Shown here: positions 5,825 through 53,343 of the stretch, piece by piece
Position numbering within the stretch: position 1 is the first letter of the stretch
Layout: each line of letters begins with the position of its first letter
From: Hemileia vastatrix
Lineage: Eukaryota; Basidiomycota; Pucciniomycetes; Pucciniales; Zaghouaniaceae
Assembly: GCA_030280995.1 (NCBI GenBank)
Contig: JASXTE010000017.1
Span: 10,936,498-11,000,497 of the forward strand
Direction of reading: 5' to 3'
DNA: 64,000 bases
Notes under the pieces: generated by a model
What the model saw: only the letters and a program-made list of their open reading frames with translations
The model's database searches: none
Told to the model about the DNA's origin: nothing
Translations under genes and position numbers: made by a program

Positions 5825-5834
5825 GATGCCCGGG

Positions 5835-7249: not shown

Positions 7250-7282
<33 letters not shown>

Positions 7283-11491: not shown

Positions 11492-11505
11492 AAGTAAACT
11501 ATCTA

Positions 11506-12678: not shown

Positions 12679-12751
12679 TTAAAATTTTTAGAAGCACCTA
12701 AAAAAGACGTAGTAGTGCAAAGAATGAGAACTACGGAGAATTAAATTATAC

Positions 12752-22251: not shown

Positions 22252-22290
22252 CACCACAGGAAATCAGGGTATGAACTGCTAGAAGTTCCC
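22252..22290 (+). repeat. Left terminal inverted repeat of the giant CACTA element
   Basis: It starts CACCACAGGAAATC, then AGGGTATGAACTGCTAG. It aligns with the reverse complement of 53306-53343 with a few mismatches and one small gap. GCTAG is a shared core, also seen in the MITE ends. Downstream to about 22510, repeated TTGAGC and GCTCAA words form probable subterminal transposase-binding repeats. Confidence 0.75.
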
Positions 22291-22510
22291 TCTTTTTGAA
22301 ACTTTCAGGAAGAGGTTGGAAAATTGTTAAGGAAATGTTTTGACAGAATTAGGAAACTGTTTTTAAATTACATGAAAAAATTTTGAAAAAAAAGTTGGCC
22401 CTAAATTGAGCCTCAATTTATCCCTTCTTGAGCAGAGCTTTGGATTTAAGTTGAGCATCAGTTGGAACAAATTTGAGCAATGTTTGAGCCACAACACTCA
22501 ACATACCATA

Positions 22511-23149
22511 ATATTCAATTTTATAAATAGATCCATTTAATTTTGTGAGGTCAGGTTTGATATTAGCAGAAATATATTATATGACACATAGTATACTAGG
22601 TCTGGAATATTATTTCAATTATCAATTTTATTTCTGAAAATATATAAAAAAGAATACTATTTAAGTCCTTTTTAAAAATTTTATGAATAAAAATATAACT
22701 CTGTAAAAATATTTGCACATAATTTTAAATTTTCTAGACAAAAGTTGATATTGAGCCCTCATCAATAGAAATTTCTCATTGTTCCTTGGAATAACAAAGT
22801 ATAAGACAATGTTCAAAAAATTTAATGTAGGAGAGAATATATATATATATTTTATAAGGGGAAAAAATAGTAATGTATTTTTTTAAAAATTTACACTATT
22901 AAAGAAACTAATTTTAATATATTGGCACACAACTTAGGCTCTAAAATAATGCACTTTTTTAATTATTTATCTGTATTTAGTTATTATTAAAATGTGAGTC
23001 AACATTAATTATTAACATACATGAAAAATTCAATTTTGAATATTCATCCAATATTATATATATTCTCTACTTTATTCTCTTTCAAAACTTTGCTCTCACC
23101 CTCTCTTTCTTTAAGCTACCACCATCACCATCAAATTCATTTAATTAAA
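22511..23149. other. AT-rich subterminal stretch without a gene
   Basis: There are long A/T runs and an (AT)n tract around 22838-22850. The last 150 bp are pyrimidine-rich (CTCTCACCCTCTCTTTC) just before an ATG at 23150, as expected for a fungal promoter or leader. No further feature was seen. Confidence 0.45.
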
Positions 23150-25577
23150 ATGTCAAATTTAAGATGCATTGGAAAATTTTCTTTAAATTTTAAACCTATT
23201 TTTCCAAAGAAAGATCTGTATTTGATGAAGTATCCACTCAGGTTATTATGCAACGAGGAAGATCTTTAGTTCATGTTTTTGGATTATTCAAAGAAGGAGA
23301 AGCAAAACCTATTGGTGATCTTTCTAATTAACAGAGCAGCCAAATTGGAAAACTACTTGGAGAAATTAGATCTGGATCTCAAATTTTAAATGAGGAAAGG
23401 TCTTTAAATCCCAAAATACCTTATTATTTTTGCTCTTACTTGGTTCTACTTTTAAACAGGCAGTATAGAATTTGCGGCATCCTTTTTTGTGTGACTGATT
23501 TTATTAGTCAGGCTAAAGAAGTATTTCTAAATGCTCAAATTGATTTGACACCGATTCCACACTACAATCCAACCTTCTTCTTTAATATTCCTCATTCTTG
23601 TATTCACACAACTTCTGAAATTTCTGGGACAAGGGATAATCAAATGGCAAATCTATCTATACGTGGTATGAAAACAACTCTGAAAACGCATCAGATTCAA
23701 GCTATCAATTTTATGATAGATAATGAAAATAACTTATCCGAAAAGTTAGAAAAACTGTGGAGGCATGCAGACAACAGCTGGCTGAGAGTAGGTTTTAATA
23801 ATTATTATGAACAATTTATTGAAGAAGAGTTATCCTCTGCAGGAATTGTTTCAATTCTAGCTGATGATATGGGCTTGGGAAAGACCCTCTCAGCTCTTGG
23901 CCTAATTACTGCAACTCAAAGTGAAGCCAGACAATTCCAACTCTTGGGTGGTGGACAAGAGAAAGATAGGACATCAGCAACTCTCATCATTTGCCCACTT
24001 GCAACATTATCAAACTGGGACAAAGAAATAAGAATTCACTTTGAAGATAATGCACTACCTTTTAAGGTTCTTTATGGGAAGGATTCAAAGAAAATTAATT
24101 TTGAGGAGCTTCAGAACCAACTAGTTTTTTTGACTACCTATGAGACAGCAAGTTCATCTTCTTCAAATAAAACTCCTCAACCTATTCCGCCAGTAACTCA
24201 TAAACTCATTTGGTACAGAATAGTTTTAGATGAGGCTCAGTAAGCATTCATTTGAATTACTAAAAATTTTGAACATAATATTATAAAGCTGATGAAATGT
24301 TTAACATAATTTAAAAGTTTAATCAAGAATCCCCAGTCACACAAGAATCAGAATATATTGTCCTTGGAGGCTGAGTATCGACTATGCTTGACAGGGAAAC
24401 CACTTCAGAACCAGAAACCTGATCTTTAAAGCCTTATATCATTCCTCAGAATCGAAAGATGGCAAGAAAACTGGTTGTGGATTAATTTTCTTATGAATGG
24501 ATTAAACAGAAGAAGCTCTAGCTCATTAAAATTGATAAATACTCTCATGAATGTCATATGCCTGCGGAGGACTAAAGAAGCAATCTTATCACTTCCTCGA
24601 AAAATTGAGCAAGGAATATCTGTAGAATTATCAGAACCTTGGCACTCAAAAATTACGAAGCTTCAAGAATGTTTTTCTGAGTATTATGGGCCTTCTCAAA
24701 ACAATAACCTCCCTTGGGACTCAGCTGAGTTTCTCCAAGAACTGTCAATTTTACGGCAATTTTGTAACCACCCTGTCAACAAAAACCCAGACCAACCTCC
24801 AACATTTCCTTTCACTTGGAAAAATCCAGCAAAGATTATACATCTAATCAGTCATTTATAAATTTTTTTTAGGAGAGAAAGGGGGATAATTTGTCCCAAG
24901 GCTGTTATATTTTCAGAATATGCGGACTTTTTGGAAATGTAAGGAATTCTATTAATTATCTCAATAACTTATTTTTAGCTTAAAAGACATTTCAATATTC
25001 TATCCATTGAAACAGTATAAAAAAGGCTTTAGATGACCATGGAATTAGATACACAGAGCTTGTAGGAAAGTTGAGCATGAAAAAAAGGGATGAAAATCTT
25101 GACAAATTCAAAAATGATGAGAGATGTCAAGTTTTTCTTGGTACAATCAAGGCTGCAGGAGTTGGAATAGACTTGAGGTGTGCACAAAATGTATATATAA
25201 TGGTAAGTCAAAGAGTCTTATATTGAAATAAAAAATGTTGAAAAGAGAATTTTTTTAAAATATTGAAACAGGAGCCTAATTGGAATCCAGCAGTTGAACA
25301 GCAAGCAGTTGATTGTCTGTATAGAATGGGCCAACAAAATGAAGTTCATGTACTCAAGTATTTTGTAAGTAGAAGTATTGAATTCAGTATTTATAAGATA
25401 TAAAGAAAAAAGATTGAGCCATCAATGTATGTGAAATTTCCTTTATATAAAGTTGCATCATAGCTAAAAATATTTATCTGTTCTAATTTGAGAAGGTTAA
25501 GTGTCCCAAACATTGGAAATGAGGAATATGAGTCTGCTAGGTTGTTGATTAGGGAATTCATCAATAAATCACATTAG
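23150..25577 (+). pseudogene. SNF2-family DNA-dependent ATPase (RAD5/HLTF-like core)
   Basis: The helicase core is spread over several exons. N-lobe: Walker A in DDMGLGKTLSALGLI (about 23864-23908), LIICPLATLSNWDKEI, a YRIVLDEA box at the end of exon 1 (intron donor GTAAGC at 24239 would complete DEAH), then LTGKPLQN. C-lobe: RRTKEAILSLPRK, LRQFCNHP, CPKAVIFSEYADFLEM, FLGTIKAAGVGIDLRCAQNV, and NPAVEQQAVDCLYRMGQQ after an intron ending in ACAG at about 25271. Introns at 25203-25271 and after 25364 have GTAAGT donors. One TAA (24427-24429) interrupts PDL-SLISFL, and a one-base shift follows the DEAH intron. No RING finger was seen between the lobes. Known role of the family: ATP-driven chromatin remodelling or fork repair. 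The start at 23150 is uncertain. Confidence 0.8.
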
Positions 25578-26706
25578 AATTTGAAATTTTTCAAGTATGT
25601 AGGAAATGTTTATTGGGGCTTGACAATTAAGAAGTCTTAATTGTTGAGGATTAAGAGAAGCGTGATATAATGAAGAATAGCAGTCACTTGGCAAAACCCT
25701 GGAGACTGGAAAAGAATTAAAGTGAGTCTCAATTGAGGATACCAAATTTATACTATCATATAATGCCAATTTCTTAAGTATTTCTCCTGAATAAGAGGAA
25801 GTTTCTCGGATTTGAATGTGTTTCTGGTTGAGATTTTGTGCAAGTCTCGAGAATTTTTCACATCTCCATGGCAATAAAATCCGCTTAAAAGAACCTTCAT
25901 CATCAATTTTGGTGTCTGAGCAACATTTGACATTTTTGAAAAGATTCTCATAGGTTTCACCAATTGGAAGTTGTTTAAGAAGGTGAATTTAGTTAAAAGA
26001 ATTCTGAAAAACGTTGTCAAATTTATATAAGCTTGTGTAAAAAAAAGATAAAAACATTAGTTATTACTTTATTCTTTATTTTATATTTATACTTTCTTAT
26101 TTTAACTATTTCACGGAAACTATCAGAATATTTTCCGAGTCGTAATTTATCAGCATAAACTATAAACCAGCGGTGAAGAACACCCATTTGATTTAGGTAG
26201 GAAATATGAGTAGAGTCCATTGAATAAGAAACCAAATAATTATTTTCCAAAGCTTTATCGCAGTGCTTAATGATAATTTTTGCCAAAACTTGATTTCACT
26301 TGTGAAACCAATCAAGATTCCAAGCAAACGTTTTTCCAGGAAAGTTGCATTGATGAAGAAAGTGGATAAAAGCATTGTGGAATATAGCAGGGATTTGTTC
26401 AGAAACATGGTAATTTTGTTCAGGATATGGCAAATTAATATCAATGTTGAGAGAGCTTATATTGAACAATGAAAACCTATGTAGTTGTTCTTCAGTGGGG
26501 TACAGCTTCCATTCATTAGACTGAGGTGAAATATTTAAAAGCACACAACAGAAATTGTAAATAGACCTGCAAAAATGAGAAGTTGATTGAGGGAGTATCT
26601 CATTGGATCTTTTATTAAGTACACGGGTATTAGTAGGTATTTTTCCCTGAGGAAAATAAGAACAACTAGATCTCATCATATACGTTATGAAAAGCAAAAT
26701 GAACAA
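25569..26706 (-). pseudogene. Unknown protein family A, copy 1 (resembles multicopy rust proteins)
   Basis: Minus-strand pieces form one broken gene. The N-terminal piece includes INLPYPEQNYHVSEQIPAIF and FAWNLDWFHK. After a TGA (26296-26298) the same frame continues NQVLAKIIIKHCDKALENNY and MGVLHRWFIVYADKLRLGKY. Past an interruption around 26020-26100 the C-terminal piece reads LPWRCEKFSRLAQNLNQKHI and VLPSDCYSSLYHASLNPQQL. The layout (aromatic W/F-N-D-W block, W-N-x-V, RW..Y..K, basic stretch, LPWR, LP.D.YS..Y) matches the gene at 31.6-33.2 kb on the other strand. I recall similar uncharacterised proteins in rust genomes but know no function. Exact splice sites are not settled. Confidence 0.5.
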
Positions 26707-27753: not shown

Positions 27754-30700
27754 ATGCCACCATTTTTTTGCGTTTGTAAATGTGAAAAGCTTGGATGTTC
27801 ATCAAGAAAGCATCAGGCCTCATTGGGAAGCTTTGAAGTTGGTGTAGCTTTCAAAACATCTCAGCCATACTCCAAACATGAAGAGGAAAGAAATTGCAAA
27901 GCACAGATGGTTGGTACATCCAGCGCTTTACCTAACTTAGGATCCAACATCCAAGATCTTGTAAGACATAAATAATTGGTAAATAAAGAGAAATTATGTT
28001 TCAATTAATCTCTATTTTTTTTCTTTGCTTAGGAGCAGCCTGTTTTTGAAAAAAATTCAATCTCTACCACGGTCAAACAATTTGAATTTTGAAGAGCTTT
28101 ATAGCCAAAAGTTAATGTGACAAGCGGAGAAACTTTCTCTTATCCATCATTTAAGCAAAGAAGGTTGTTCTGAATTTTTGCATGATGAAGTCAACAAACT
28201 CAAACTTCTTAGTGATGTAAGTAAGCTAGATGCTAGCAGAATCATCAGCCTGATTCCCCTTTCTATAGAAACAGTTTTTAGTCGATTGCAACTCCATCCA
28301 TTATTTGTTACCAAGACATTCTGTGCTAAGTGCTTTGCTCTTTATGAGTATATCCCCAAACATCAACCATCGATCTTATCCTGTACTCAACCTTTTTATT
28401 CATCCTAAAAGCACTATTTGAAAGATTTAGGACAGAGAGAAGAAACTGTCAATTGTGATGAAAGTTTGTATTTGGCTAAGTACAAACAAGAAGAAGCAAT
28501 CTACCATCCTTGTAAAACATTTCATCACAACAGTTTGGTTGAATGGCTTTCTGAAAAGCTTAAACTAATCAAATTTGAGACGCTGATTGAGAAAAAAAAT
28601 GATTTTATAGAAAACATGGAAAGCAATGTCATGAAAGATGTATATGATGGTTTTGTGTGGAAAAATTTTCCAGATATTTCTATGACTTGAAATAGAAGTG
28701 TTGATGGATATACAAAAACACAAGGTAATTTAACTTTTAGTTTATGTGTTGACTGGTTTGGGCCGGGTGGCAATTGTATTGGAGGTCATCAGAAATCTGT
28801 GGGTAATATCTTGTTGGTGTGTATGAACTTGCCTACAGAAGATCGATACAAAACCAAAAATCTATTTTTGTATGCTATTATTCCCAGTCCAACTGAGCCA
28901 ACAAGTGAACAAATAAATCATCTTCTGAAGCCTCTTGTCGATGAACTAAAGACTCTATGGGATGGCATATTTATTGAAAAAACACCTCACTATCCACAAG
29001 GCCCAAAAATAAGGGCTACATTATTCTCTTTAATAGAAGACATTCCAGCAATGCGAAAGATTGCTGGTTTTGCAAGTCACTCCACCACTAAGTTCTTCTC
29101 TGTCTGTCATATTTCAAAAGATGAAATTGGTGAGAATCAAGTTGAAAAATTTTCCTTACGTACTCATGAGGATCATATGCACTGGGAAGAGAAGTGGAAA
29201 AAGTGTCAGTCACATTGGGAGTGGGTATCTATTGTTAGGAGTCATGGGGTTCAATGGAGCGAGCTAAATAACCTTGTATATTGGCATCCTACGGAATATT
29301 GCTCAATTAAGTTGATGCATTCACACATGCTTGGAAATCTTAAAGATCACAGTCTAACTTTTTATCTAATACAAAATGCCGCAATCAACCTAGAAAAAAA
29401 TCTGAAAACGGAAAAAAATTGGCATGTAAGAAGAGACGATGATGATGCATGTTCTGATATATTTCTAAATAGGAAATATAAAAAATGTAGAAGCAGCATA
29501 ATCAGCCCTGATGCCAATAATATTGAACCAGTGGGACGGCAAAAAAGACTACAATATACAAGTACAACGAAACTGTCACAAAAACATCTTAGAATGGATA
29601 GTGGAGGAGCTGAATTGGAAGGATCAAACAGCCAGACAAAGTCATGAAGTTCTGAACATCACTTTCAAACCTTAGAGTTTGGCTCCAAACATGCTTCTGA
29701 AAGTGGAAGTTGAAATTCAACCTATAACTTAAGGCAAAAAAGTAGCAGTATATCCGAAAGTGAAAGATCTAATTCATCCGTTGAGACTATTAGAAGTAAG
29801 GAAGATAAAAAGAAGAGCAAAGAGAAAGAAAGAAAAAGAACTAGAAATCCACAATTGTCAGCCACTGAGCTAGAGGCAGTGTGCAATGTGATAGAGCAAA
29901 CAAAAAAACCTTCCTGGATTTCATGAGTGCCAAAACAAGTAGGATCTAAAAAGTCATTTTTCCTCAAAGCTGCGGAGTGGCATGTACTATATACTGTTTA
30001 CTTTCCTTTGTCACTTATCCCCCTTTGGGTAGAAAAATTAAATCAAGCCAAGACATCCGTGAAGTCAGACCACAAACCTAGAGAATATTATCTTCTCAAA
30101 TCACTCACCACTTTAAGTTCAATTACCAAATTTTTGACTTTAAAAAATGTGTCTGCCAATGAAGTTGATGAATTAAAACAACTTTTATTGGAGTATTGTA
30201 ACTTCTTGGAAGAAGGTTGGAAAAACATCAGCTTTAAGCCAAATCTTCATTTCACTCCACATTTTCCAGAAATGATTAAACGTTTTGGTCCACCCGTAGG
30301 TATGGCTACTTGGGCTGCTGAAAGAGTTAATGGTAGATTATCGGAAATTCCAAACAATAATCATCCAGGTATTTAGTTTGGTAATTGGGTGCTTAAAAAT
30401 GTAAATGAGCTAATTTATTTTTATTGAACATAGAAGAAATACCACAGACCATGCTCAAGCACTGGCATTGGAAGTCTAGGGTATTGGAACTAGGTGAAGC
30501 TGAAGATAATGCTCAGTATGGATCTAATATTAAAAAAACTGAGCACAATACAAAAAAAGACATTTCCATTTAACTGAGGAATTATTTACAAAATGGGTAA
30601 GGGCAGGCTTAAGAAAAAGAGACATCTAAATGGGCTTTGTTACTATCAGAGAAGGTAGGAGACAGGGTAGTTGAAAATATAGCAAGCATATTGGTCCATG

Positions 30701-31055
30701 GAAAGCGTTATACAACTCATGACCAGAATCCTGGGATTTCTACCATTGAATTCTACTTTGGAAAATATTGTCAGTTTGGGCATATTGATCAGCTTTTTAG
30801 TTCAAAGGATGATAATGAAAAATTCTATCTAATTGTTAGTCCATTTAAAGAGCTTATACCAGAAGATACAAAAAAGGATCCCTATGAGGCGTTTCCACAA
30901 GTGCATTGCCGTTTAGCAAGAGTAGAAAAAGTGACACAAATTGTGATAAATCAAGATTAAATTATTGGACATGCCTCCAATTTACAGCACCAAATGTGAA
31001 TGTTTGGAATAAAGTACGATGTTATCACTGCTGTTGGACTTCAGACACTAGTAAG
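27754..31055 (+). pseudogene. CACTA transposase of tnp2 (Transposase_21) type
   Basis: Exon 1 begins MPPFFCVCKCEKLGCSSRKH, a Cys-rich start usual for basidiomycete tnp2 proteins. An intron follows (donor GTAAGA at 27961, acceptor TTAG near 28033). A single frame then continues to 30376 with stops TGA at 28118, 28688, 29645, 29711 and 29924 and TAA at 28406. Core motifs: SLCVDWFGPGGN, VCMNLPTEDRYK, IIPSPTEPTSEQINHLLKPL, KIAGFASHSTTKFFSVC, RTHEDHMHWEEKW, VQWSELNNLVYWHPTEYCSI and MHSHMLGNL. The DUF4218-like part has HFTPHFPEMIKRFGPPVGMA and WAAERVNGRLS. A further exon after an intron ending near 30430 reads on to about 30960 (C-terminal domain). The stops make this copy inactive, but the frame is otherwise well preserved. 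Confidence 0.85.
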
Positions 31056-31557: not shown

Positions 31558-33252
31558 ATGTCTAATACTGGTGATGCCATGCAGGTTGATCCTCCATTAG
31601 AAACTAATGTTGGAGTGCAAAATAATCCTCCCCCTCAAAATCCTAGAATGCCTCCATCGGGTCCTGCTCCCCCTGAAAGACCTAGTGAAAATCCAGGTAA
31701 ACCCTAACTTCCTTCTCAGTATTCATCAGATACCCAAATTTGATCAACTGATTGCTCTTCTAATATCACAAATACAGATAGTCAATCCACACCTGGTAAC
31801 TTTCAGCAGCAAGCAGAAAGTGTAGGTAATGATTGGGCTAGTATGTTATTGAATCAGTTTCTTGGAAGCGGTGGGGGATCCACTTCTACTAAACCAGCAG
31901 CCAGTACCAGTGGACCTGGTGAGTAAACTTTTTCAACATGCTTTTATGTTTTAAATTAGGTTTACAAATTTTTATTTTCAAAAATTTGCAGTTAATACCT
32001 CTCTTATAATTTGAGCTACTGATCAGCGCAGAATACTTGATGCTGAGTCACTTCAAAATGACCAAAACTTGCAAATGGTTAGAAGCATAGTTACGAGGTG
32101 TGATGTACCAAGGAGCTCAGATTCTATTAACCAAAATATCTATCACTTTTCAAAGTTCTGTCTTGGTGGACCCATTAATGTATCTGAGTTTCCTAAAGGC
32201 CCAACAAATGAAGAACTTACATACTGGAAAAATTGGCATGAGTACAAGCTATTGACGATTGAAACAGCATTAAAACAGGCTCAAAACGCACCGCAGGCAA
32301 CTTCAGCTGCTTATCCTCAATTTATTTTAACAAATACTGCTATATTCTTACGTTCCAAAATTCATCTACCAACTGTTATTTCAACACCTGAGCCCCGAGG
32401 ACTAAAGGGAGGAGCTGCTGTACCAATCTCTGTAAAACAAAATTTCGAACGAGAGCTTCAAGAGAAAGGATTTCGTCGACTCCCTTTTGATTGGAACTGT
32501 CAAAATTTTTCTGAGTCACTATGGAATCAAGTAATGTGGAGTGTAGTATCAGACCATTGTACTAAGTGGCTCTCAACATTGAAAAATATTAATTCAGCAA
32601 AACTCAGGTTTACACCAATCATTGTCGAGAAATGGGTGGTCAACAAGGGAAAGGAGATTCAAAAGATGGCTGGTCAAAACTGTGAGGTGATTGAGGCAAG
32701 TAGAAAGGAAAAGAGATCAAGAGCACAGATAAAGCATTATAAAACAAAGGTATTTATTAAAAGCATAAAAACTAAATAAAGTCTATTACTAATTTGATTT
32801 GATCTTAGATTTCAGAAAACCGCTACAACATGGCAAGAAAAAAGTGCTTTAATCAGCTAGGCTTTGTAGCACTTTTTCATGATACAAGTCTCATATCTGA
32901 TTTAGAAGAAGCCCCACCCAATCCAGAAGAGAATTGTCCTAAATGAGTAGTTACTGGATGGAGAAATCCAAAATAGGATGAAATTTTAGATAAAATGGAC
33001 AACTTGACTAAAAAGACGGCCCATTCAAATGTTGAAAAGGCTTCAATGAAGAAACTTCATGATCGCTCAACTAAAAAGACAGCTTCAACAGATGGTATCT
33101 TGAATGTGCCCAAATTTCTGCCAAAAAACTGCTATTCACCTGGATATTTAGCAAATTTGTTGGTTAATGAGAGGGAGTTACTTGAGCTTTGAGAAAATAT
33201 AGATTTCTCCAAAGTTAATGAAGCACTAGATTGAGCAGCAGCAACTTAAATT
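31558..33252 (+). pseudogene. Unknown protein family A, copy 2
   Basis: The first ATG, 31558 (MSNTGDAMQVDPPLETNVGV), opens a Pro/Gln/Ser-rich N-terminal region in short exons (donor GTAAAC at 31696). The main exon (about 32000-32750) reads FSKFCLGGPINVSEFPKGPT, KNWHEYKLLTIETALKQAQN, EKGFRRLPFDWNCQNFSESL, WNQVMWSVVSDHCTKWLSTL and FTPIIVEKWVVNKGKEIQKM, then a basic stretch. An intron with acceptor TTAG at 32808 leads to NRYNMARKKCFNQLGFVALF and FLPKNCYSPGYLANLLVNER. TGA codons at about 32011, 32944 and 33190 and a TAG break the frame. It shares its block order with the minus-strand gene at 25.6-26.7 kb. Function is unknown; two copies next to a tnp2 transposase suggest a transposon-borne gene. 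Confidence 0.55.
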
Positions 33253-41463: not shown

Positions 41464-41769
41464 GGGGGTGTCAGTTCTGGCAAATCCGCACTTAAATTAA
41501 GTGCGGATTTCAAACCAAATCAGCACTTACAAATCAGCACTTAAATTTTGCAAAAAAGTCACTTATTTCAAAAAAGGGTGTCAGTTATGACCTCAAATCA
41601 GCACTTTTTTCCCGTTTTTTTTCACAACCACATTTTGGCCACAAAACATCCCTTCCTTTCTTACCCCATCCCTGTCACATGTGACACACTGACCTTCCTC
41701 GCTACCTACCCATCAATCCTCGGCACACACCCCTTCCTGACATTTTCAATATTTTGACCAGGCATGTTT

Positions 41770-42536
41770 ACATTCTTTTTTAACACCTTTACTTGAAGAA
41801 GATCAATCCCCTCCACCTTCTAACCATAGTTCAGCTGAAGATGATCCCAACTATCAAGCAGAACAATTATATCGCAGAAGATCTGAATCCTCAGAGGCCC
41901 AAAATTTAAATGTATGTTTACTTTTTGTTTTTTCTTCAATTCTTCTCTGAATTTCTCTTTCTTTCTAGTCTCCTCCTACTCAAACTCAATCTCCATTAAA
42001 TAATCTCAATTCTGGAAATGTGAATACCTCTTTAGAAGTTGCTTTAGAAGAACTTCCTGAAGCCTCTTGTTCAAACTCCAAACTAAAGCGTCGAGCCTCA
42101 ACTTCAATGAACTTGAACCATCTATTAAAACGTGGTAATACTTCAACAAGCTCATTTGGCTCCCTTGAGGATTATTTTGAAAAAAAAGATATAAGTAAGT
42201 TTTGTTTACTATATATCTTAATCATTAACTCATTTATTTATTTATTTCAATTTAATTTTCTCAGCGAAATCAACTATTGCAAATAATGCCCTTGACTTTG
42301 AGAAGATGAAGTTTGATCATATGCTAAGGAAAGATCAGCAAGCCTTAGATTTGGAAGAAAAAAAATTTGAGGTAGAGCAGATGGAAAGAGTAAATGACCG
42401 TCAATTTCAAAGAGAAATGGCTACTTGTGAATTGGAAAAACAAGAGAGTTTTTAAAAAAAAGATTTCATTATGGAATGTGTTAAAAATGGCCAATCTTAT
42501 GAGGACATTAAAAAATTACTTGACCTTTTCAATTGA
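41770..42536 (+). pseudogene. Second protein of the Harbinger-like unit (C-terminal part with coiled coil)
   Basis: Three exons, to 41911, 41969-42194 and 42265-42536, join in frame (introns GTATGT..CTAG and GTAAGT..CAG). The protein is Ser/Pro-rich (LLEEDQSPPPSNHSSAEDDP), then SMNLNHLLKRGNTSTSSFGS. It ends in a long charged helix (FDHMLRKDQQALDLEEKKFE, MERVNDRQFQREMATCELEK) and DIKKLLDLFN. Harbinger elements usually carry a Myb/SANT-like DNA-binding partner whose C-terminus looks like this; the Myb part itself is not visible. One TAA (about 42453) lies in the helix. The 5' end is not determined. Confidence 0.5.
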
Positions 42537-42690
42537 TAAATTGTTTTTCTAGTTAATTTAATTTTGGTAATATTTTCTTATATGCTGACTTATAAAAGGA
42601 AAAGAATATAGTACGTTATTTTTGACAAAAATATGAATGTATAATAAAAATTTTCTATCTTTACTTTCTAGTCAATAAGTTTGCTTATCT

Positions 42691-42869
42691 AAATTTTTCT
42701 AAGTCATCAATTTCACATGTCAGATTTAAAAAATTGGCAATGCCCTCCCCTGCATTTTATTGAAACAAGGGATGGGTACCACCAAATTTTTCTAAGTCAT
42801 CAATTTCACATGTCAGATTTAAAAAATTGGCAATACCCTCCCCTGCATTTTATTGAAGTAAAGGGTGAA
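42691..42869 (+). repeat. Two tandem copies of a 93-bp repeat
   Basis: AAATTTTTCTAAGTCATCAA starts at 42691 and again at 42784. Each copy ends in CCCTCCCCTGCATTTTATTG. The CCCTCCCCTG...GGG word also appears in the unrelated unit at 49.9-50.1 kb. The repeats are noncoding and lie between the two Harbinger genes. Confidence 0.8.
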
Positions 42870-43203
42870 AGTCATCAAAATACAATATAATTACATAAAT
42901 TAATTAATATATAAATAAGATATGTCAAGTATACTACTTTTAAAGTAATGACAATTCCTTAAGCCAAAATGCAGATCAAGTCTAGAAACTAGGTTCAATG
43001 CAAAGTATTTTTTGAAGCAACTTATTTAAATAATACTTTATTAAATTAAGTTGATCAATAAAGATTGATTGACAATATTGCAATTCTTAAATACAATAAT
43101 TTTATTAAAAAATTTCAGATTACATATAAAAAAAATCAGTGACTTTTTCTATTACTTACAACTGTTTTTACAGAATTGAAAACTATGTTTCAGCTAATAT
43201 TTT

Positions 43204-43609
43204 ATGGAAGTGAACTCTGTTCTTCGCCCGAAGAACAGAGTTCATCCTCCTATTTTCACACTCTGTTTAAAAAGAATAAAATGACTTACCTGGAGAGATG
43301 AGTTTAGAAAAAAGAAATATAAGTGAATGGAAGTGAACTCTGTTCTTCGCCCGAAGAACAGAGTTCATCCTCCTATTTTCACACTCTGTTTAAAAAGAAT
43401 AAAATGACTTACCTGGAGAGATGAGTTGAGAAAAAAGAAATATAAGTGAATGGAAGTGAACTCTGTTCTTCGCCCGAAGAACAGAGTTCATCCTCCTATT
43501 TTCACACTCTGTTTAAAAAGAATAAAATGACTTACCTGGAGAGATGAGTTGAGAAAAAAGAAATATAAGTGAATGGAAGTGAACTCTGTTCTTTGCCCGA
43601 AGAACAGAG
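43204..43609 (+). repeat. 123-bp tandem repeat, three full copies and a partial fourth, each with a palindrome
   Basis: Copies start at 43204, 43327, 43450 and 43573 with almost no divergence, so the expansion is recent. Each has the palindrome arm GAACTCTGTTCTTCG around CC, and a segment that reads CTCTCCAG-GTAAGT on the minus strand, a perfect 5' splice-site context in transposase sense. The fourth copy stops inside the palindrome, where a G-rich tract begins. Confidence 0.92.
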
Positions 43610-43800
43610 GGGGTTAGAGGCGGGTTTGGTGGGGATTTGGAGGGAGGATTTGGGGGATTTGGTGGGGGGTGGAGTGGAATGAGGGGAAGATATGAGGAGA
43701 CCAAGAAGGGGGAGAAAGGGAGAGATGAGACCAAAGAGGGAGAAAAGGGAGGTTAGAGTGAGCCAAGGAGGGGTGAATGAGGCAGCCAAAGGGGGGAAAA
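43610..43800 (+). repeat. G-rich low-complexity tract
   Basis: The plus strand is dominated by GGGG and GGA words (GGTGGGGATTTGGAGGGAGG and similar) with almost no C. It has many G-runs and could form G-quadruplexes, which is a prediction only. On the minus strand it translates to Pro/Ser/Leu runs that generate false open frames. It replaces the expected catalytic part of the transposase. Confidence 0.8.
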
Positions 43801-44283
43801 GGGGGATGATTCCAAGGAGTTGATGGCAGTGATACATCGTTTGGTATAAGTGTTAACTGAACCATACCCTAAATCAAAGACATTTTCTAAACGTTTCAAA
43901 GCGGCTCCATTACCATTTGAACCCAAACGGCATAGTGTGATGGCCAATTGAATTGAAGGATGTCATTGTTCTTTTTGAGAATTATTGTGAAATATGGGAT
44001 GATCCTGAATAAGCTCAAGCAATTTAAGGAAAAATTCCTGAGAAGTCCTGAACAGCTGTCTAAAACTGGGTGTAGATAGGTTAAGAAGTGTTTGGATGGT
44101 GTACTTGGGGGTATGAAGTACTTGAGGCTTTCTGGGAAGAAGGTAACGTTTCCTGGCCATTTTTGATAAAATGACAAAATCTTCTTCTAGATCAGAATCG
44201 GAATCAGAGTCCAAGAGCAGTTCAAGCGCCATGAAAGTCATTGCTTTATGTAATTTATCATGATTTGAAAGTGAGGAAGGCAT
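43801..44283 (-). pseudogene. Harbinger-like transposase, N-terminal fragment
   Basis: The ATG at 44283 (MPSSLSNHDKLHKAMTFMAL) begins the fragment. It continues with MARKRYLLPRKPQVLHTPKY, FRQLFRTSQEFFLKLLELIQ and DHPIFHNNSQKEQ. A TGA (43963-43965) follows, then HPSIQLAITLCRLGSNGNGA and DLGYGSVNTYTKRCITAINS in the same frame. This is the helical N-terminal region of fungal DDE_Tnp_4 proteins. Similarity stops near 43795, just before the DDE core, so no catalytic residue is present. Transposition would need a full-length relative. Confidence 0.72.
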
Positions 44284-44590
44284 GACTCTTATATGATATG
44301 ATATGAAGATGTAAGTGATGTACGATGTTTTGAGTTATGAAGTGTTATTCTGCGGAGTGCTGCGTATGAATGGGATGATGCTGACAAATCAGTGAAATGG
44401 GACTTGATGGTGAAATCAGCACTTTTGGTTGAGAAAGTGCGGATTTGAGTGAAATAAGTGACTTATTTCATTTTGAAATCCACCAGTATTGGGGCTAGTG
44501 TGTTTTGGAAATCCGCACTTATTTAAGTGCGGATTTGGTCAAATTTAAGTGCGGATTTGTAAGTGCGGATTTGCCAGAACTGACACCCCC

Positions 44591-45170
44591 TAATATTTAT
44601 TTTTCCATTAATTTTTTTTGCTTTTTACTTAAATAATAATAGAATAATACATGGTTTTACTCTAGTTATTAATAAGAAAAAACTTATTTCAAAAATTAGC
44701 AAATTTCTAATATTCTTAAAAACAATATTAATAGTACAGATCTATTTATATTGATGCATATGATCTTTTAGGATGGAAACTAAAAATATTGTATATTTTT
44801 AGTTTACGTTTGCAATAATTAAGCAAGTTACAAATCTATATTTTGTTTCTTATATTTTATTATATTATATTTTATTTTACATGTAGCAATGATAATTTTT
44901 TATTGTAATATGATTTTTCAATTTTTACATCCATTTTTTTCATACTTTTATTGTTTTAGGTTTTTCACTAGATTATACATAATCATCAGCTTCATAAAAA
45001 GGTTTTATAGACATGTGTTTAAATATATCATTGTACCACTAAACTAAAACTATACCTGTACAATAAAATCACATTTTTACCTATCACTAGTTAATGGTCT
45101 TTTCCTTTTTTTATTAACATGTATATCAGAATCTTTTTCTGTATTTAATTTTTTAATATCTTTAGTAACA
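44591..45170. other. AT-rich stretch, no gene recognised
   Basis: This lies between the Harbinger-like unit and the 3' end of the dioxygenase gene. Only A/T-rich sequence was seen. Confidence 0.5.
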
Positions 45171-46371
45171 TTAAATATATAGTAATTCAATAACTTTTTT
45201 TTTTGTTAAATAAGTCTTTTCATTGTACTTAGAAAGTTTCATGATAAGAAAATTACATCTTTCCAACTCTTCATTTACATTTAAGTACTCAGAAATATCT
45301 ATTTCAAACTCTAGGAGTTTTTTAAATGTATTGAAAAGTCTTGTACTAACTTGAATAGAAGAGCCAAGGCGAGTGAATCCACCAATTTCATAACATTGTG
45401 AAGTGAAATGATTAAGAAGGCTTTCTGGCCATAGAATCGTTGTGATGCCATTAGTGGCCTCCATGTCTACTTTGAAAGCTATTTCAGGAAAATGAAGCTC
45501 TCCACCTTTTTGACGTGGTTGATTTGAGTCATAAGATTGATGAAGAGAATTTTTATCAGTGTCTTTAGGCATGAAAAGTCCAAATGTATACTCACTTCAG
45601 TTTGAGTCACAGTGAGGACTATTCAAAAACCCATTTCCATTTGAGCCTGTTTTCCAAGTAACATTGCCAGAAAATGGTTCAATTTCTTGATCATCAACAT
45701 TTTCTCCAAACCCAGGAATCCCGAGCTTTTGACAGAGTTTTACTGCTTCTTGATACTTAACATTAGATATATTTTGATAAAAAAATTTAAAGAATAACAC
45801 TATTTGCTTCATGCAACAATCATACTCTGCCAAATCTAAGGGCTTAGAAGCATATTTACCTATAAAAGTAATTAAAATATTAATAGATTAAAACTATTCA
45901 TAAATAAAACTATATAATACTTACGAATTAATAGAGACTTTTTCCTATCTAAACACCAACCACCAACAAACATATTACCAAATCCACCACCATTTTTATG
46001 AGCTTTATTTTGTAAAACTCCATGTTCACAATACGAAAAGTCTTTGATGCACTGAATTGTTGCTTCAAGCATGTTTAATCAAATGAGATCTTCAATAGAA
46101 AATGTTTTCACTATAACACTTGGAATTGAGGATCGGATTGGATCGAAAATATAACAGCTAGAATTCAAAGTAAAATACCATTCTGGATTAACTAAATTTT
46201 TTACAAAACTCCTAGAAAAATATTTTGCCCTTTTTCCATCTGTCTCAATACCGTAATTTTCAACAATAAGTAATGCATTCTTGATGTTTTTTGAACGCTT
46301 GTTGTTTGATTTTTTTCCTCAGCAGTGATTTTTCTTTATAAAAAACTTTGTGAAGCCTACATCTTGTAGTG
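45171..46371 (-). pseudogene. Tet-like 2OG-Fe(II) oxygenase
   Basis: Two exons: about 46371-45925 and 45859-45171, with an intron at 45860-45924 (GTAAGT..TATAG). Exon 1 reads YGIETDGKRAKYFSRSFVKN, NPEWYFTLNSSCYIFDPIRS, then, past a TGA at 46079-46081, LNMLEATIQCIKDFS and KNGGGFGNMFVGGWCLDRKK. Exon 2 reads FYQNISNVKYQEAVKLCQKL and GFLNSPHCDSN (the HxD iron ligands). A TGA (45597-45599) follows, then SEYTFGLFMPKD, ITTILWPESLLNHFTS (probable distal His) and GFTRLGSSIQVSTRL (probable 2-oxoglutarate Arg). The domain order matches the Tet-like oxygenase family expanded in basidiomycetes. The known chemistry of the wider TET/JBP class is oxidation of 5-methylcytosine or thymine; the substrate here is inferred. 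Only two TGA codons, at likely former CGA sites, spoil the frame. Confidence 0.78.
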
Positions 46372-48186
46372 TAGTTGATAAGAAATTAATTTAATTTAAA
46401 AATAAATAAAAAAAAGTGAAAAAGAATGCAATTGTTAAAATTAACACCTCCAAAAATAATCATTATATATTCTTAATAATAAATAAAAAATCATATCCAA
46501 CGTGCATGTAGAAAACATGAGTATTAGCTGCATTTAAAATATTAATCAAGTATTTGGTATTAAAGCTTCATTTAATTGCTTACAAGTATAGTATTCTGCC
46601 ATATGCGTTGGGCACATGAGATTCAACTAAACCCTAAACATAAACAATTAAATGTGAAGCTTAAATCCAACACCCAATTATTACAATATATACAGCAATA
46701 ATACATAAGTATGTGTTGATTCTTTATTTAATTTTTCTCCATATATAAATAATATATCAAACTTCCAGATATCCATAATTTATAATGTTGAAAGGTATAG
46801 TTTCCTTAAACAAGAATAAACTATACCTCTACCATTAATAGAATTACAGGAGGCCAATACAATAAATTATTGATATGTAGAAAAAATTGATCCCATACAC
46901 ATGTGGATACTATTATATTATATTATATTTTATTATTTAATATATAATGATTGAGAATAATAAAAACTTTAAAAATGAAATAGTGAAAAAAGATATTCTT
47001 TCTTGAAATTTTAAAAAAATCCTTGGGTAGAAGTTGATTGATTGATAAATGGACAACTAATCTGTTGATTTAAATTTTTAGGAATAGATTATTGTAGAAA
47101 AATAAGTATTATTTTTATTGAATGAAAAAATGAAAAGAGAAAGACAAAGCAATATAAAATTTGGATGCTAACTAAAAATTAGTTTTTTAATTATACTATG
47201 ACAAGTTAGAGATCAAGCTGCCAAGAGATAAAAACAATCATCAGTTCTATTTTTTTATTTTTTAAAGAGATTTACAAGGAGACTAAAAGACCAAAAATCC
47301 TAGTTAGTAATCTGTAAATAAGTTACTTTGGTGGCAAACCTAATGATTGAGAAAAATGGATTCCCTAAAGGTTGAACATATATTTAAAGTGAAATTAATA
47401 TTTTTACTTAAGAAACAAGTATAAGAGTCAAGCCAAAATAAAAAAATCTTAAGTGAAAAAGATGGAAAGCTAATTATTTTAATAACTTGTATCTTGTAAG
47501 TGGAAGGAGAGAAGTAGAAAATTTGCCACTCGGATGAAAATTTGCTTACAGTTATGCGTATAGAAACACACAAATTACTGAAGCTGCTTGCATGGCATGC
47601 AGTGACTTGCATAAGGTGTATATGCAACAGGTTTTTACACAGCAATATATTGTACAAATGATGAAAAAACATTTTCACATGCTTTTAATTAAAACTTACA
47701 TATTTTTTTACAGCTTATTTTTATAGGGTTTCACGATGTATAATTCGAGGAACCAAAGCCTTGGCATGTTTCACACAGATGCAATTAATATTTATTTTCA
47801 CTTATTTTTCAAATTCAATCCACTTATCCATATCATTTGTTCACATAAGGTTGGAAAACTAACCTTCAGCTGTTATGGACACCTTTTTTATCACTTATTA
47901 TTTTTTTGCCACTAAGTTGACATTTGGCTACAAAAGATTTAACAACCAAGTATATATTTCTGCAAAACAATCTGCACACAAAATCAGTATTCTGATATTT
48001 CAAATATCTTCAAACTGGTTATATAATTTTTGGCATTTACAAATATCCAATACCTCTTTTTCTGGCTTTGATTTTTTATTATGCACATATACATTTCACA
48101 CTGTCAAAAATTTAATGCCAAATGGCATGTAAAAGAGTAGCGCAAATTTCAATATCTCATCTCATCTTATTTCTTATTAATTCAAA
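46372..48186. other. AT-rich stretch, no gene recognised
   Basis: About 1.8 kb with scattered short open frames on both strands (for example 47340-47678 minus, 47875-48132 plus) that show no motif and no splice-consistent extension. Nothing else was seen before the hairpin cluster. Confidence 0.45.
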
Positions 48187-48683
48187 CCAGCCAGTTTCCC
48201 CCTGGCTGGTAGTTTATTTTCTATAGTAGCCAATGTTGCTTAAAGCAACATCGGCTGCTCAAATCTCACCTTAAAACCTCCTAGCCAGTGTTATCTGGTT
48301 GGGAGATGTGAAAAACAGTTTTCAACCAAAGTCGCTACAAGCAACTTTGGTTGCTTTTAAAAAAGACTTGAAGCCAGTTTTATACTGGCTGCAAATCATT
48401 AATATATAAAAAAAGCAAGTAAAGTTGCTGCATGAAACTTCCCTCTCTTTTAAACACAACATCTTGCAGGCAGTTTTAAACCGCCTGCAAGATGTATTAT
48501 AAATTTGACCAAAGCCACTTTTAGTGGTTTTGGTCATTTTTTTCATTTTTATTAAACGCTGCCAGCTTAAATCTGGAAGCAATTTTTTTATTTTTTTATA
48601 TTTTTCAATCCCGAGCCACAGTAAGTGGCTCGGGTTATTTTATTCGTTTTTTTAAATTATTATCAGCCAGGCTCCCCCTGGCT
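48187..48683. repeat. Cluster of about nine different hairpins
   Basis: Inverted repeats follow one another at roughly 30-80 bp spacing: 48187-48209, 48229-48255, 48280-48303 (with G-T wobble pairs), 48323-48353, 48368-48394, 48461-48493 (ATCTTGCAGGC arms), 48507-48535 (GACCAAAGCCACT arms), 48610-48634 (CCCGAGCCAC arms) and 48665-48683. The arms differ, but most contain a GCCA/TGGC core. No open frame crosses the cluster. It could be a structured noncoding RNA, a protein-binding array or a remnant of fold-back elements. Confidence 0.8.
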
Positions 48684-48885
48684 CGTAGTGTTATCTGACA
48701 TTTGAAATCTTGTAAAAAAGTTTAGAGGAAGTATAAAATGCATATTATTTGATACATTATGAATTATGAGGTAGAGGATTGATGAAGGGATTAATAGCTT
48801 AAAAATAAAATGGGCCATTGCTGATAAGGAGAGTTATAAAACAATAGATATTTTCTGTGAAAATGAGATGGGATGGAGTAAATTA

Positions 48886-51800
48886 GGGGGTCTCAAAATT
48901 GATCAAATATTCCACATAATCACGCCATAAAAAATTACCAAAAACCCCAATCAAAAATGAAATACACCTGCCCTATACAGGTGTATTTTGATGGTGTGTT
49001 TGACCTTAAACACACCTTCTTTTGGGAAGAAAAAGCCATCAGAGAACTTCTCTCCTTCATATTGATTAGTCAGCACTAGGTACAGACAAGCCATCTGTTT
49101 AGATTCTTTTTCACCTAATTCTTAAGGGCTTATTATTCAACATGTGAAAAACGTGACTTCCCACCACTTAGACATCCACTTCATCATACACTCACCCTTA
49201 GTCTTCATCAATATTCACAAACTTCCTCTTTCAGTCCATTGAAAACTAGAAATAACTGCTACCACTCTAGCCCTGGATCTATTGGTTAATTCAAATACCA
49301 ACTCCAATGCCAAAATTAAGTTGGCTTACATGTGTGACATGCTGAATAATCACTACTTATATTCCAGAACACTCTCCATACAACACCCACCACAATTTAA
49401 CCTTGATGTTCTTTGAAGCATTCCTGAAATTAGCTTTAAACAGATATTTGGCACAACCTTGCCTGGATATCTCAGTTACTTGAACTGATAAAAGATCACT
49501 CAATTTTCAGAAATGATTCTTGTTGTCCATAAAGAGATCCTCCTATTCAAATCTGTGTTGCACTTTGTCATTTTAGCTCAAATTTAAATGGTGGCACATT
49601 TACCCATCTTGAAAAACTCTTCCAGATCAGAGATGGAAATAAATATTTTGATTGTAAAAAATGCTTTGAATCTCTCTTATATACATTGCATGTGTCTACT
49701 CTTGCTAATTTTTAGGATTCCAGTTGATTAAATGTTTTTTGTTTAAATTATAAGTAATGTTTTTCTCCATATCTACATGACTAAAATTCATTCTGGATTT
49801 CTATTAATAATTTGGTTAAATATGGTTTTTCAACAGCTTCATTAACCAACCCTTGTGCACAAGATACATAACTTAACAAATTGTATTTTTCTAAATCTTG
49901 AAATTCAGAAATACCCTCCCCTGAGTTTCACTATATTAGGGGGTGGTGATTGCCATTTTTTTCATGTCAAAAAATTTTTTTATGTCTGAAAAAAAAATAA
50001 CAATACCTCATCCTGAATTTTACTGTGAGAGGGGGTGGAGACTGCCATTTTTTTCATGTAAAAAAATATTTATGTAAGAAAAAAAAATCACAATACCTCC
50101 CCCTGCAATATACTGTGGGAGGGGGTAAATATTACCAAATTTTCATTTTAATTTCATAAATTCTTTAATAAATCAATAAAAAAATATAATCAGCCAAGTA
50201 AAAGTAAGGGGATTCACAATTCCACCTACTAATGATTTCAGATGTGACCAAAGCCAAATAAATCATATGACAAGCAATGTATTGACAATTCATCCATTCA
50301 ATACAAATAAATAATTAAATTAACAAATTTATACTGAAGCAATTCTCAATTGCACAAAAGTTTTATTTGATTGATTATATTTAATAATTGATAATTTAAA
50401 AATTTATGAAATAAAAACAAAAAAAATCGAAAATCTTCTAATTACCATATTTGGAACCCCTCCCTAAAGATTTAACATAAATAGGGCGCTTCCCCCTTGC
50501 TTTACTTACCTGGTTTATCTGACTTTGGTTGATTTGGAATGAAAAACCAAAATGAGTAAGTTTTTCACAAGATTCCAAAAAAATGAGAACACTTTTTACA
50601 AGATATCAAACAAGGAGTTTCCTTGGTAGTTTGATGATTATCTCTTAGATTTTTTATTGATGATTATGCTGAGAAGAGTTCCAAATAGATTTGATGATGC
50701 CATCTCCTGAAAAAAACTCAAAACATCAACAAATCAGGGAAAAAAATGATTTATTAAGAAGAAAAATTGAGGAAACAAATGATAAAAAACAGTTGAGAAA
50801 TAGACATACCTTGGGAGTGGTACAATGAAAAGTATCAGAAAAAACATGCATATTATGGAATATCAAAATTCAAAAATTTAAATTAGTTTACATAAAAAAA
50901 CTCAACTTTAAAAGTAGATATCTCAGAAGTTTCTGAGCAAAAATTGATTATGCTTTCTGGAAATGAAATTCATGCCTATAGAGAGCCTGTAATAAAAATA
51001 ATGTGAGATTTGAATGAGCCAAAATCTAGCAAATGTTAATATTCATCCTCATAAAATAAAATTACAAAATTAAAAGGGCTCATCCAAAACTGATATTTAG
51101 CTGATCAAATCAGAGCCAAAAGCCTGAAGTGTTATTTGAAATAGATTGCATAAGACCTATATGCATATTATGCAACATTGAACTTAAAAAATGTAAATTA
51201 GTCCATGAAACAAGGTTCAACTTTGAAAGCAGTTATCTCAGCAACCACTGGACCAAATTCAACACCATTTGCTGGAAATCAAATCCATGATTCTTGATAT
51301 TCTTCCAACAAAAGGATATGTCATTTAAAAAACCCTAACCCTATTTCTGACCTTTTATTTTTGACTTACAAGAAAATCAAAAAAGGGTTATAAAATTTAA
51401 AGCCAGGTATTATCAATGGTCTAAAAAGATCTATTTTAGCTATCTATGTTTTTTATAAGTATTATATTTGTTCCAGAGTAAAACATACTTGAGAAGATTA
51501 AAATAAAGTTGATGGAAGTTTGAGCCAAGTGGATGATAAATATCTCAAAAACCAGTGAGCCAAATCAGATGTTGCGTGGTCGATATGATATCTAGGCTTC
51601 TGTAGAACCTTCTTAAAAGTGGAAATGTGATTTGAGAAAACAAAAAAAGAAATAGAACAATAACAAAAACAAATTCAGAAAAAGAACATCAGTTAAAATT
51701 GAAAAATAGATGGTGGGAGGATGACTTACCTGATGAGATGTCTTAAAAGATGTAAAAGGACCAGATAGAAGTTCAGGAAGTGATGGATAAAAGAAATAGA

Positions 51801-52419
51801 AGAAGAGTTAAGGAAGTGAGAGAAGATGAATAAAAGGATATGAGGGATCATTGAAAAACAGAAAGAATGAAAAATTATGTAATTTCTGAAATATCCAACT
51901 TCATGTTGAGATGATTAACCAAAATGAATCAGGAAGGGAAAAATTATGCTTTCAGTGAAAATTCAAAATAATAGTCAATATGAAAAAATAAAACCAACCC
52001 AAGTGAAGAGTACATGCAGCTTGATCATTTTGAGAGCATGAAAAAAAAAATTTAAAAGGGTTGTGTTGAAAATTTTGTAGTGTTCTTGGAATGAGGACTA
52101 AGTTTTGAGGATATAAATTTGTTCAGGAATTGTTGATAAAGAAGGTAATGAAAAGCTCAAAATTTACTGGGGCACCTGGGGCACCATGTGTAAGAATTTG
52201 TATCAAAAAAGTGGGAGGGGAAAGATGTGATGTGTGGTGAATTGGGAGGATCTGTAGATTGGTTGGCTGTGCTGTGGTTGGAAAATTTTCACTAAAGTAG
52301 GACATATTTGACCCCACGTTTAGGATCTCATGTACCAAATCAGCCATGTTTCATGGTGTGTTTATTTGGTGGTTTTCAATGAAATCCACTGGGCATATTT
52401 GTTCAAGTATGAGACCCCC
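48886..52419. mobile_element. TIR element with GGGGGTCTCA ends (3.5 kb), no transposase recognised
   Basis: The left end is GGGGGTCTCAAAATTGATCA and the right end, reverse-complemented, is GGGGGTCTCATACTTGAACA. Similarity continues through CAAATAT.CC for about 33 bp. Flanks AATTA and TATTA agree at four of five bases. The ends resemble the Harbinger-like unit at 41464 (GGGGGTGTCA). Subterminal hairpins AATACACCTG/CAGGTGTATT (48961) and GGTGTGTTT/AAACACACC (48993) follow the left end. A 74-codon minus-strand frame starts near the right end (52123-52347) without known motifs. It is probably non-autonomous. Confidence 0.65.
49900..50135 (+). repeat. Three imperfect tandem repeats of about 90 bp with CCCTCCCCTG / AGGGGGTGG arms
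   Basis: Each unit has an AATACC(T/C)CCCCTG segment, a short TTTACTG stretch and then GGGGGTGG, so the C-rich and G-rich parts can pair into a hairpin. TTTTTTCATGT and A-runs follow. Two similar units lie in the Harbinger-like element at 42.75-42.87 kb. Confidence 0.7.
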
Positions 52420-53305
52420 TATTAAAAATTAGATGGGTAGAGGAGGAGGAAGAGATCCTTAAGAAGATGAATAAAATATTGCTTTAAAAATTTTTTACAG
52501 ATAAATATTAAATTGAAATAAATTTTGTAAATATTTTTGTGATTATATTGGTTTTCACTTTTAAATGCAGTTACTATTTCACATGTACTCATACCAAAAC
52601 TTGGGAAAGTGATTTATATAAGCATTAAATATTTAAATTGGAAAACTTGCATATTAATTTCCATAACAACAATTCAAGTTATACACTTTAAGGACTATTT
52701 TTATTTTTATATAAATAGAAATATTTCTTTTAGTTAATTAACTGAATATTTTATTTTCAATAGCCTGTAGGTCTTACATTTTAGGTAAAATTTAAAAAAT
52801 TATACAAAATTTAGTTTTTCAAAGACTTAATAGATTAGAAGTGACTATAATCTTTTTAAAATTTGAAAATAGGAATGGCATTAGTTATTTCAATCCCTAT
52901 AGCTATTAATATTTGTGATCAAAAAATTTGCTAAATTTATCTATTGTTACAATTATGTAGTAAAAGATATTATTATTGTAAATTAAGTTTACTTTCATAA
53001 TTTTATGGTTTATCTTTTGAATGCAAAGTAATGATTAGGTATGTTAAGGAATAATTTTCTTACTCTAAATTGATAATAATATTGTATATTCAAAAGCTTA
53101 TTTTGGATCAATGTGTGCTCAATGTGTGCTCAATAAAGGATAAAATCATGGTTATAGTTGATCTACTTATGCATAACTTGAGATCAATTGAGGTTCATTT
53201 TTGGACCAATCTGAGAATAAATGTAAATCTAACTCTAATTTACTTATGTTTATAAAGTATTCATAAACCTGGCATAATTAAGGGACACTCTAAATTTCAA
53301 AAGGG
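52420..53305. other. AT-rich stretch and right subterminal region of the giant CACTA element
   Basis: No gene is recognised. At 53108-53134 the word TCAATGTGTGC occurs twice in tandem, shared with the MITE interior, and is probably part of the subterminal transposase-binding region. Confidence 0.5.
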
Positions 53306-53343
53306 GGGATTGCTAGCAATTCACCCCTAGATTTTGCGTGGTG
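53306..53343 (-). repeat. Right terminal inverted repeat of the giant CACTA element
   Basis: The reverse complement starts CACCACGCAAAATCTAGGGG and continues TGAATTGCTAGCAA. AAT follows at 53344-53346, matching the left flank. TTGCTAGCAA makes a small palindrome, as in the MITE termini. Confidence 0.8.

Follow-up and report, generated by a model that had tools for sequence, protein, structure and literature searches.

The 64,000-nucleotide stretch of Hemileia vastatrix DNA considered here (the window; 33.3% guanine plus cytosine) contains a 31-kb interval, positions 22252 to 53343, that has the ends of a CACTA-type transposon and encloses a tnp2 transposase gene, an SNF2 ATPase gene, a TET/JBP-like dioxygenase gene, and three orphan genes. 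The locus raises two questions: is so long an interval one mobile unit, and what might the genes other than the transposase do for it? That the unit is a transposon is close to certain. It is probably a degraded copy of a large (~27.5 kb), multi-gene CACTA/EnSpm family of H. vastatrix that bears putative silencing-escape genes. SNF2 and TET are reasonably likely to be working genes of the element, and a role of the pair in escape from silencing, which draws on an analogy, may be given an even chance.

Termini and insertion site

The following features delimit the element; the genome searched throughout comprises 747.6 Mb in 791 contigs.

22249–22251, unstranded: left target-site duplication (TSD), AAT; read directly, with a 12-copy TSD comparison
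22252–22304, + strand: left terminal inverted repeat (TIR), ~53 bp, imperfect (39/53 columns); local alignment, first 18 bases present in 98 exact genomic copies
53292–53343, − strand: right TIR; alignment to the left end
53344–53346, unstranded: right TSD, AAT; read directly, with the same 12-copy comparison

The first base of the element, 22252, opens CACCACAGG, and GTGGTG closes it at 53343. The terminal form is therefore CACCAC...GTGGTG, which is of the CACTA/EnSpm type (CAC...GTG with inverted repeats). The outermost 20 bases of the two ends match at 13 of 20 positions, a level reached by 168 of 200,000 random pairs, and the best local alignment of the ends has 39 matches over 53 columns. 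An exact search for the left 18-mer gives 98 genomic copies, 49 on each strand, against none for the reversed pattern. The right 20-mer of the window has a single genomic match, the window itself; 7 of the 11 other copies in which both ends were read close in ...GATTTCCCRTGGTG.

TSDs, judged by eye in 12 copies including the window, are exact 3-bp repeats in seven, one base off in two, and missing in three (C2m, L010, and L021). The chance of at least seven exact duplications among 12 is 1.6e-9; with the window left out, the count is 6 of 11 and the chance 4.4e-8. The right ends of C2m (L031) and L010 lack GTGGTG and run on into TTGTAGACAA, which suggests either an alternative right end in common or an identical target repeat.

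The host site is the integrase of a Ty3 element. The joined flanks align continuously over the junction with three integrase copies that lack the insertion, its empty-site counterparts: window positions 61104–61893 (73.8%, 25 gap columns) and 58945–59559 (69.7%, 36 gap columns), and L021 (79.2%, 10 gap columns). A single frame runs through the junction as SLESQWGKMF, with stops elsewhere in that frame. The first-pass annotation, made from the letters of the window, had placed AAT-flanked ends at 22252 and 53343, had the integrase frame rejoin upon removal of the unit, and had called for an empty integrase site in other copies; direct reading of both ends, the continuous frame, and the empty sites (two in the window, one in L021) bear out all of this. 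Its inverted repeats stand as well; at ~53 bp they are longer than it had them, and the termini are corrected to CACCA.

Family structure and core unit

Three further full-length copies (~29,142, 27,576, and 28,970 bp) are collinear with the window element from end to end and share its gene order; all three long copies that were followed to the far end proved complete. Aligned segments of the four full copies are 89.3 to 94.7% identical in pairwise comparison. Two of these copies, C2m and C26b, hold additional inserts of their own, and C2m itself sits within the SNF2 gene of an older relative, H (76–77% identical). Two inserts found in the window but in none of the three other full copies, 38428–38688 and 41464–44590, total ~3.4 kb. 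Without them the window element measures ~27.7 kb, and the core unit of the family is ~27.5 kb. Termini, TSDs, tnp2, and the three collinear copies support the earlier proposal that one large, multi-gene unit of CACTA type is present here. Its size is unusually large, as had been claimed, although the core measures ~27.5 kb and not 31 kb. The ~7 kb formerly ascribed to nested insertions is too high: private nested DNA comes to only ~3.4 kb, and the array at 33989–35692 belongs to the element itself.

22252–23384, + strand: left segment retained by seven of the eight sampled short derivatives (~0.26 kb in the eighth); survey of 20 left ends
38428–38688, unstranded: nested small CACTA-type element (CACTAC...GTGGTG, TSD TAT); missing from the three other full copies
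41464–44590, unstranded: nested 3.1-kb TIR element (GGGGGTGTCAG ends, TSD TA or TAATA); missing from the three other full copies
46400–52652, unstranded: right arm, without an assigned gene; open reading frame (ORF) list and codon-phase scan
52653–53343, + strand: right segment supplying the right part of the short derivatives; survey of 20 left ends

In the survey of copies, 10 kb was read behind 20 of the 98 left ends, these being the first 20 listed rather than a random sample. Long-type copies that run into the SNF2 gene account for nine (L011, L012, L015, L020, L023, L024, L025, L026, and L028) and short derivatives for eight (L010, L014, L016, L017, L018, L019, L022, and L029), and three belong to another subfamily or are rearranged (L013, L021, and L027, the last of which tracks the window as far as 23535 and then diverges). 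As to the gene content of copies with the same termini, on which the earlier claim had been made to depend, they are not merely short miniature inverted-repeat elements. The short derivatives, five of which measure 2.3 to 2.7 kb, consist of a left part, then palindrome-array DNA, then a right segment from ~52653. The left break at 23384 is common to seven of the eight, and the left part of L029 is ~0.26 kb. They carry TSDs of their own together with the common breakpoints, and two (L014 and L018) bear their own inserts.

Transposase, TET gene, and their pairing

Genes and array of the element are listed in order.

23150–25349, + strand: SNF2 ATPase gene, Rad5-like, several exons, approximate boundaries; PF00176 and PF00271, rust clade
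25575–26679, − strand: gene B, an orphan in convergent orientation with SNF2, with a single stop in the window copy; ORFs, and the ratio of nonsynonymous to synonymous substitution rates (dN/dS) against relative H
28121–30957, + strand: tnp2 transposase gene, stop-interrupted in the window copy; PF02992, 125 scored genomic matches including itself
31558–33189, + strand: gene D, orphan open frames; ORFs
33989–35692, unstranded: array in which a 38-bp palindrome (46 bp including its A/T ends) is repeated 15 times, each with 0 to 7 mismatches; reversed-sequence control 0
37185–39684, + strand: gene E, orphan open frames, with the 38428 insert inside it in the window copy; ORFs
45174–46318, − strand: TET/JBP-like 2-oxoglutarate-Fe(II) dioxygenase gene, its two main ORFs separated by a stop in the window copy; PF20515

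Pfam was applied to 20 chosen ORF pieces of the window. The tnp2 gene matches PF02992 with E 5.4e-15 (55.6 bits, cut-off 28.6), and a tnp2 piece has three matches in the protein collection, all from Austropuccinia psidii. Inspection of ORFs by eye for the DDE residues and the C(2)C and H(3-4)H motifs of CACTA/EnSpm transposases showed a CxxC in sister copies. A longer TET ORF from a sister copy matches PF20515 with E 1.5e-20; against PDB sequences, TET yields just a 13-bit match, which is at chance level.

The two genes lie together at many places in the genome. The searches scored 125 of 3,558 first-look candidates for tnp2 (82 to 100% identity) and 150 of 5,305 for TET (83 to 100% identity), each with the window copy included and each a lower bound. 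Of the 125 scored tnp2 places, 71 have a scored TET downstream and in opposite orientation at a distance of 10.9 to 36.6 kb, within bounds of 10–40 kb that were chosen after seeing the window. The controls gave 0 pairings on the wrong strand and 0 and 2 on the upstream side, and 200 draws with TET placed at random averaged 0.41 and never exceeded 2. When the 98 left ends are taken as starting points, 13 tnp2 and 14 TET places fall on the expected side and strand, against 0 in each of three controls. Stop-free frames occur among the matches of both searches, tnp2 reaching 780 residues; open copies therefore exist, and the window copy is not among them. The number of first-look TET candidates, 5,305, indicates that the genome may contain very many TET-like gene copies.

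SNF2 gene and its possible role

The window SNF2 gene is broken, with its start exon out of frame and one stop in a later exon. Of 7,990 proteins scored against the joined protein (612 residues), 4,470 reach an E value of 0.001 or better. The best 17 of the 120 matches listed are all from Puccinia (P. triticina and P. graminis), with 41% across the entire query for the first of them. A 36-row tree combined the window protein with 15 of the 19 listed Puccinia rows and 20 of the 101 other listed rows. In it, the window and Puccinia rows lie on one side of a branch with support 100/100; the tree program flags the letter make-up of the window row as unusual. The number of the Puccinia SNF2 genes suggests that they may be parts of transposons. 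Both SNF2 and tnp2 were read in six of the nine long-type loci, and in two of the remainder (L011 and L012) the sequence ended first.

By sequence, the best PDB match of the window protein is Rad5, a DNA-damage tolerance protein that, like HLTF, has a ubiquitin-ligase role. The protein search annotated no RING family for the Puccinia relatives, and a RING pattern is found neither in the window protein nor in the 15 Puccinia rows, although the pattern is crude and 10 of the 20 other tree rows lack it too. A Rad5/HLTF-like ubiquitin-ligase role is unlikely because of this absence. These observations bear on a reading in which SNF2 would aid transposition rather than escape from silencing, through target choice or as a Rad5-like ATPase in repair of the excision gap, with silencing left to TET alone. 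The Rad5 match speaks for such a role and the missing RING, with the same reservation about the pattern, against it; it is best regarded as unlikely, and SNF2 is taken below as a partner of TET.

Palindrome array

Palindromes in the window array are spaced at ~102 and 136 bp. Three full copies hold 17 (C2m), 10 (C26a), and 16 (C26b) of them, and all eight short derivatives hold 2 to 7 each. An array of relative H (L037), 17–20 kb beyond the junction, has 6 palindromes with a period of ~608 bp. Matching between L037 and the window array is confined to 40 to 121 bp around the core, and the spacers do not correspond. Because the core is kept while the spacers differ, the palindrome is a putative protein-binding or structural site.

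Proposed mechanism

In the proposed mechanism, the tnp2 protein would cut and paste the unit, and the short derivatives would be moved in trans. The window copy, being broken, could be moved at most in trans. The TET-like enzyme would oxidize 5-methylcytosine on the element, and the SNF2 ATPase would open chromatin or position the TET activity, in line with the role proposed for SNF2 in JBP2. The array of palindromes may be bound in cis by a dimeric protein that the element encodes, perhaps the product of gene B, D, or E. A tnp2 unit equipped with TET, SNF2, and the array might in this way let a long and conspicuous element evade silencing by methylation. It is tentatively suggested that the unit represents a transposon lineage with a two-enzyme escape module, a RING-less SNF2 and a separate TET aimed by the array through an element-encoded protein bound to it, and that this would be a giant kind present across the rusts, to which the Puccinia SNF2 genes would belong, and a counterpart of JBP2.

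Relation to known systems and significance

Starships are very large, cargo-bearing fungal DNA transposons that are moved by a tyrosine recombinase captain and have no TIR-dependent DDE transposase. The window element is like them in large size and cargo; in contrast, it has tnp2, TIRs, and a 3-bp TSD, and Pfam detected no recombinase family in the 20 chosen ORF pieces of the window.

The nearest parallels are the TET-positive EnSpm elements with CAC...GTG ends and a 3-bp TSD that are known from Puccinia and Austropuccinia (main text of Kojima 2025, PMC12730594), where relief of silencing through TET is proposed for transposon TET genes. The window element agrees with these elements of the Pucciniales, including those of Austropuccinia psidii, in its ends, its TSD, and the combination of an EnSpm-type transposase with a TET/JBP gene (PMC12730594). 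The parts of that paper compared here describe its EnSpm families without further genes, array, or size; the words SNF2 and Hemileia have 0 occurrences in its main text, and its supplements may still place an SNF2 gene in one of those families. Thus TET-bearing EnSpm elements of rusts are known already, and the SNF2 gene and the occurrence in Hemileia go beyond those accounts, as far as the main text is compared. The titles and abstract openings listed contain no SNF2-bearing CACTA element, though one may have been published.

Other enlarged CACTA elements share some of these features. Those of Chondrus crispus, as described in a passage of PMC6431247, are likewise CACTA-type, unusually long, and provided with several ORFs, but are smaller (En/Spm of 16-20 kb with 4-5 ORFs), and TET and SNF2 are unnamed in that passage. 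Soybean Tgmt*, in the part of PMC2613891 consulted, resembles the window element in tnp2, CACTA TIRs, a 3-bp TSD, and repeated stem-loop motifs; at 20.5 kb, it has a single large gene with both tnp2 and TNP1 domains, and its repeats are subterminal, whereas the array here is internal. The core unit exceeds both of these published sizes, 16-20 kb (PMC6431247) and 20.5 kb (PMC2613891), which are the ones compared.

For the pairing of enzymes, the portion of PMC11065753 consulted describes JBP2 as joining a hydroxylase to SWI2/SNF2 and reports a proposed role in placing base J. The kinetoplastid protein is like the pair here in that a TET/JBP-type hydroxylase acts with a SWI2/SNF2 domain, and it differs in being one fused protein that helps make base J, whereas the window has two genes ~20 kb apart (PMC11065753). 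The SNF2 part of the mechanism is a parallel drawn here with JBP2 and serves as a working analogy.

Rust genomes are swollen with transposons, and what keeps DNA transposons active in methylated genomes is an open question. With a transposase, a demethylase-type enzyme, and a remodeller present together in many copies, the silencing-escape idea becomes directly testable on existing read data. Such transposons also suggest a source for the enrichment of the SNF2 family in wheat rusts, for which Table 3 of PMC5295586 gives a ratio of 2.56 (q 5.8e-12).

Decay, past selection, and a methylation signature

Between the window and relative H, three SNF2 pieces have a synonymous distance (dS) of 0.55-0.71 and dN/dS of 0.15-0.38, and gene B has dS 0.84 and dN/dS 0.24, against 0.83 for an intergenic control. 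SNF2 and gene B were therefore formerly under purifying selection. The comparison with H covers these two genes; the stretches beyond gave nested DNA (L036) and the palindrome array (L037).

Selection among the present copies was gauged by the ratio of nonsynonymous to synonymous polymorphism (pN/pS) in 23 exon pieces, with four to nine rows per exon. Five pieces have lower values: three of the six tnp2 pieces (0.43, 0.47, and 0.61), one of gene E (0.40), and upstream TET (0.58). A value of 11.8 comes from a short piece of gene D that has hardly any synonymous change. The low tnp2 values are at most a faint signal of older selection on that gene.

Several results weigh against a family with working silencing-escape genes. 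The remaining 17 of the 23 exon pieces have pN/pS of 0.70 to 1.36, the two main TET ORFs stand at 1.18 and 1.05, every copy compared has at least one stop, and a codon-phase scan of differences between copies is weak nearly everywhere. H too has one stop in the compared pieces. Past selection is seen for SNF2 and gene B and not for TET, and present function of the copies is likewise unsupported. Among the long-type loci, L026 departs at 27266 and is without tnp2 in its remaining 4.7 kb, and 54 of the 125 tnp2 places lack a scored TET partner, although scoring covered just 150 of 5,305 TET candidates. With pN/pS mostly near 1 and stops in every copy, the compared copies appear to have decayed after a burst.

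The same decay, with stops and with most exon pieces near 1, would suit a CACTA element in which host genes are passive passengers and SNF2 and TET are useless to it, as would the multiplication of short derivatives without genes. Against this stand the purifying selection on SNF2 and gene B between the window copy and H, the same gene order in three full copies, TET beside tnp2 at 71 of 125 scored places, and the recurrence of TET genes in rust transposons described in the main text of PMC12730594; passengers are accordingly a rather improbable explanation. A further reading, in which unrelated elements came by chance to be nested between two CACTA-like ends, or the assembly joined such ends wrongly, to give the 31-kb unit, could appeal to the two nested elements in the window copy and the genomic uniqueness of the right 20-mer. 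It is ruled out, for nearly all purposes, by three complete collinear copies elsewhere without those inserts, seven exact TSDs in 12, and continuous empty sites.

A degraded member of a multi-gene family with putative silencing-escape genes remains the preferred reading, and the mutations of its copies bear a modest mark of methylated CpG, not one of strong repeat-induced mutation: C-to-T singletons at CpG occupy 92 of 1,611 cells, against 675 of 38,132 elsewhere, a 3.2-fold excess. Among singletons in the compared copies, C-to-A plus G-to-T changes number 850 and C-to-T plus G-to-A changes 767. Such an abundance of C-to-A is unusual for methylation-led decay, and methylation leaves it unexplained.

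Orphan genes and other mobile DNA

Gene B matches no Pfam family, and nothing in the PDB at E values up to 10. Its single homologue, P0124, is 60% identical over 58% of the query, and an AlphaFold model built from 2 sequences (mean predicted local distance difference test score 41) was not used. Pfam matches of genes D and E all fall below the cut-off and are taken as noise, and an Rfam scan of the window gave nothing at gathering thresholds.

The inner TIR of the small nested CACTA-type element at 38428–38688 closely resembles that of the large element, and relatives of the small one occur at L003, L005, L017, and L027. The 3.1-kb TIR element at 41464–44590 includes a 123-bp tandem repeat; it was probably active recently, because pieces of it at L013 and L018 are 97.6 to 100% identical. 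Upstream of the large element, identical 300-bp direct repeats at 5052–5351 and 12752–13051, 7.7 kb apart, bracket an ORF on the minus strand for a Ty3-type polyprotein of 1085 residues, and the unit at 5052–13051 is probably a young long terminal repeat retrotransposon.

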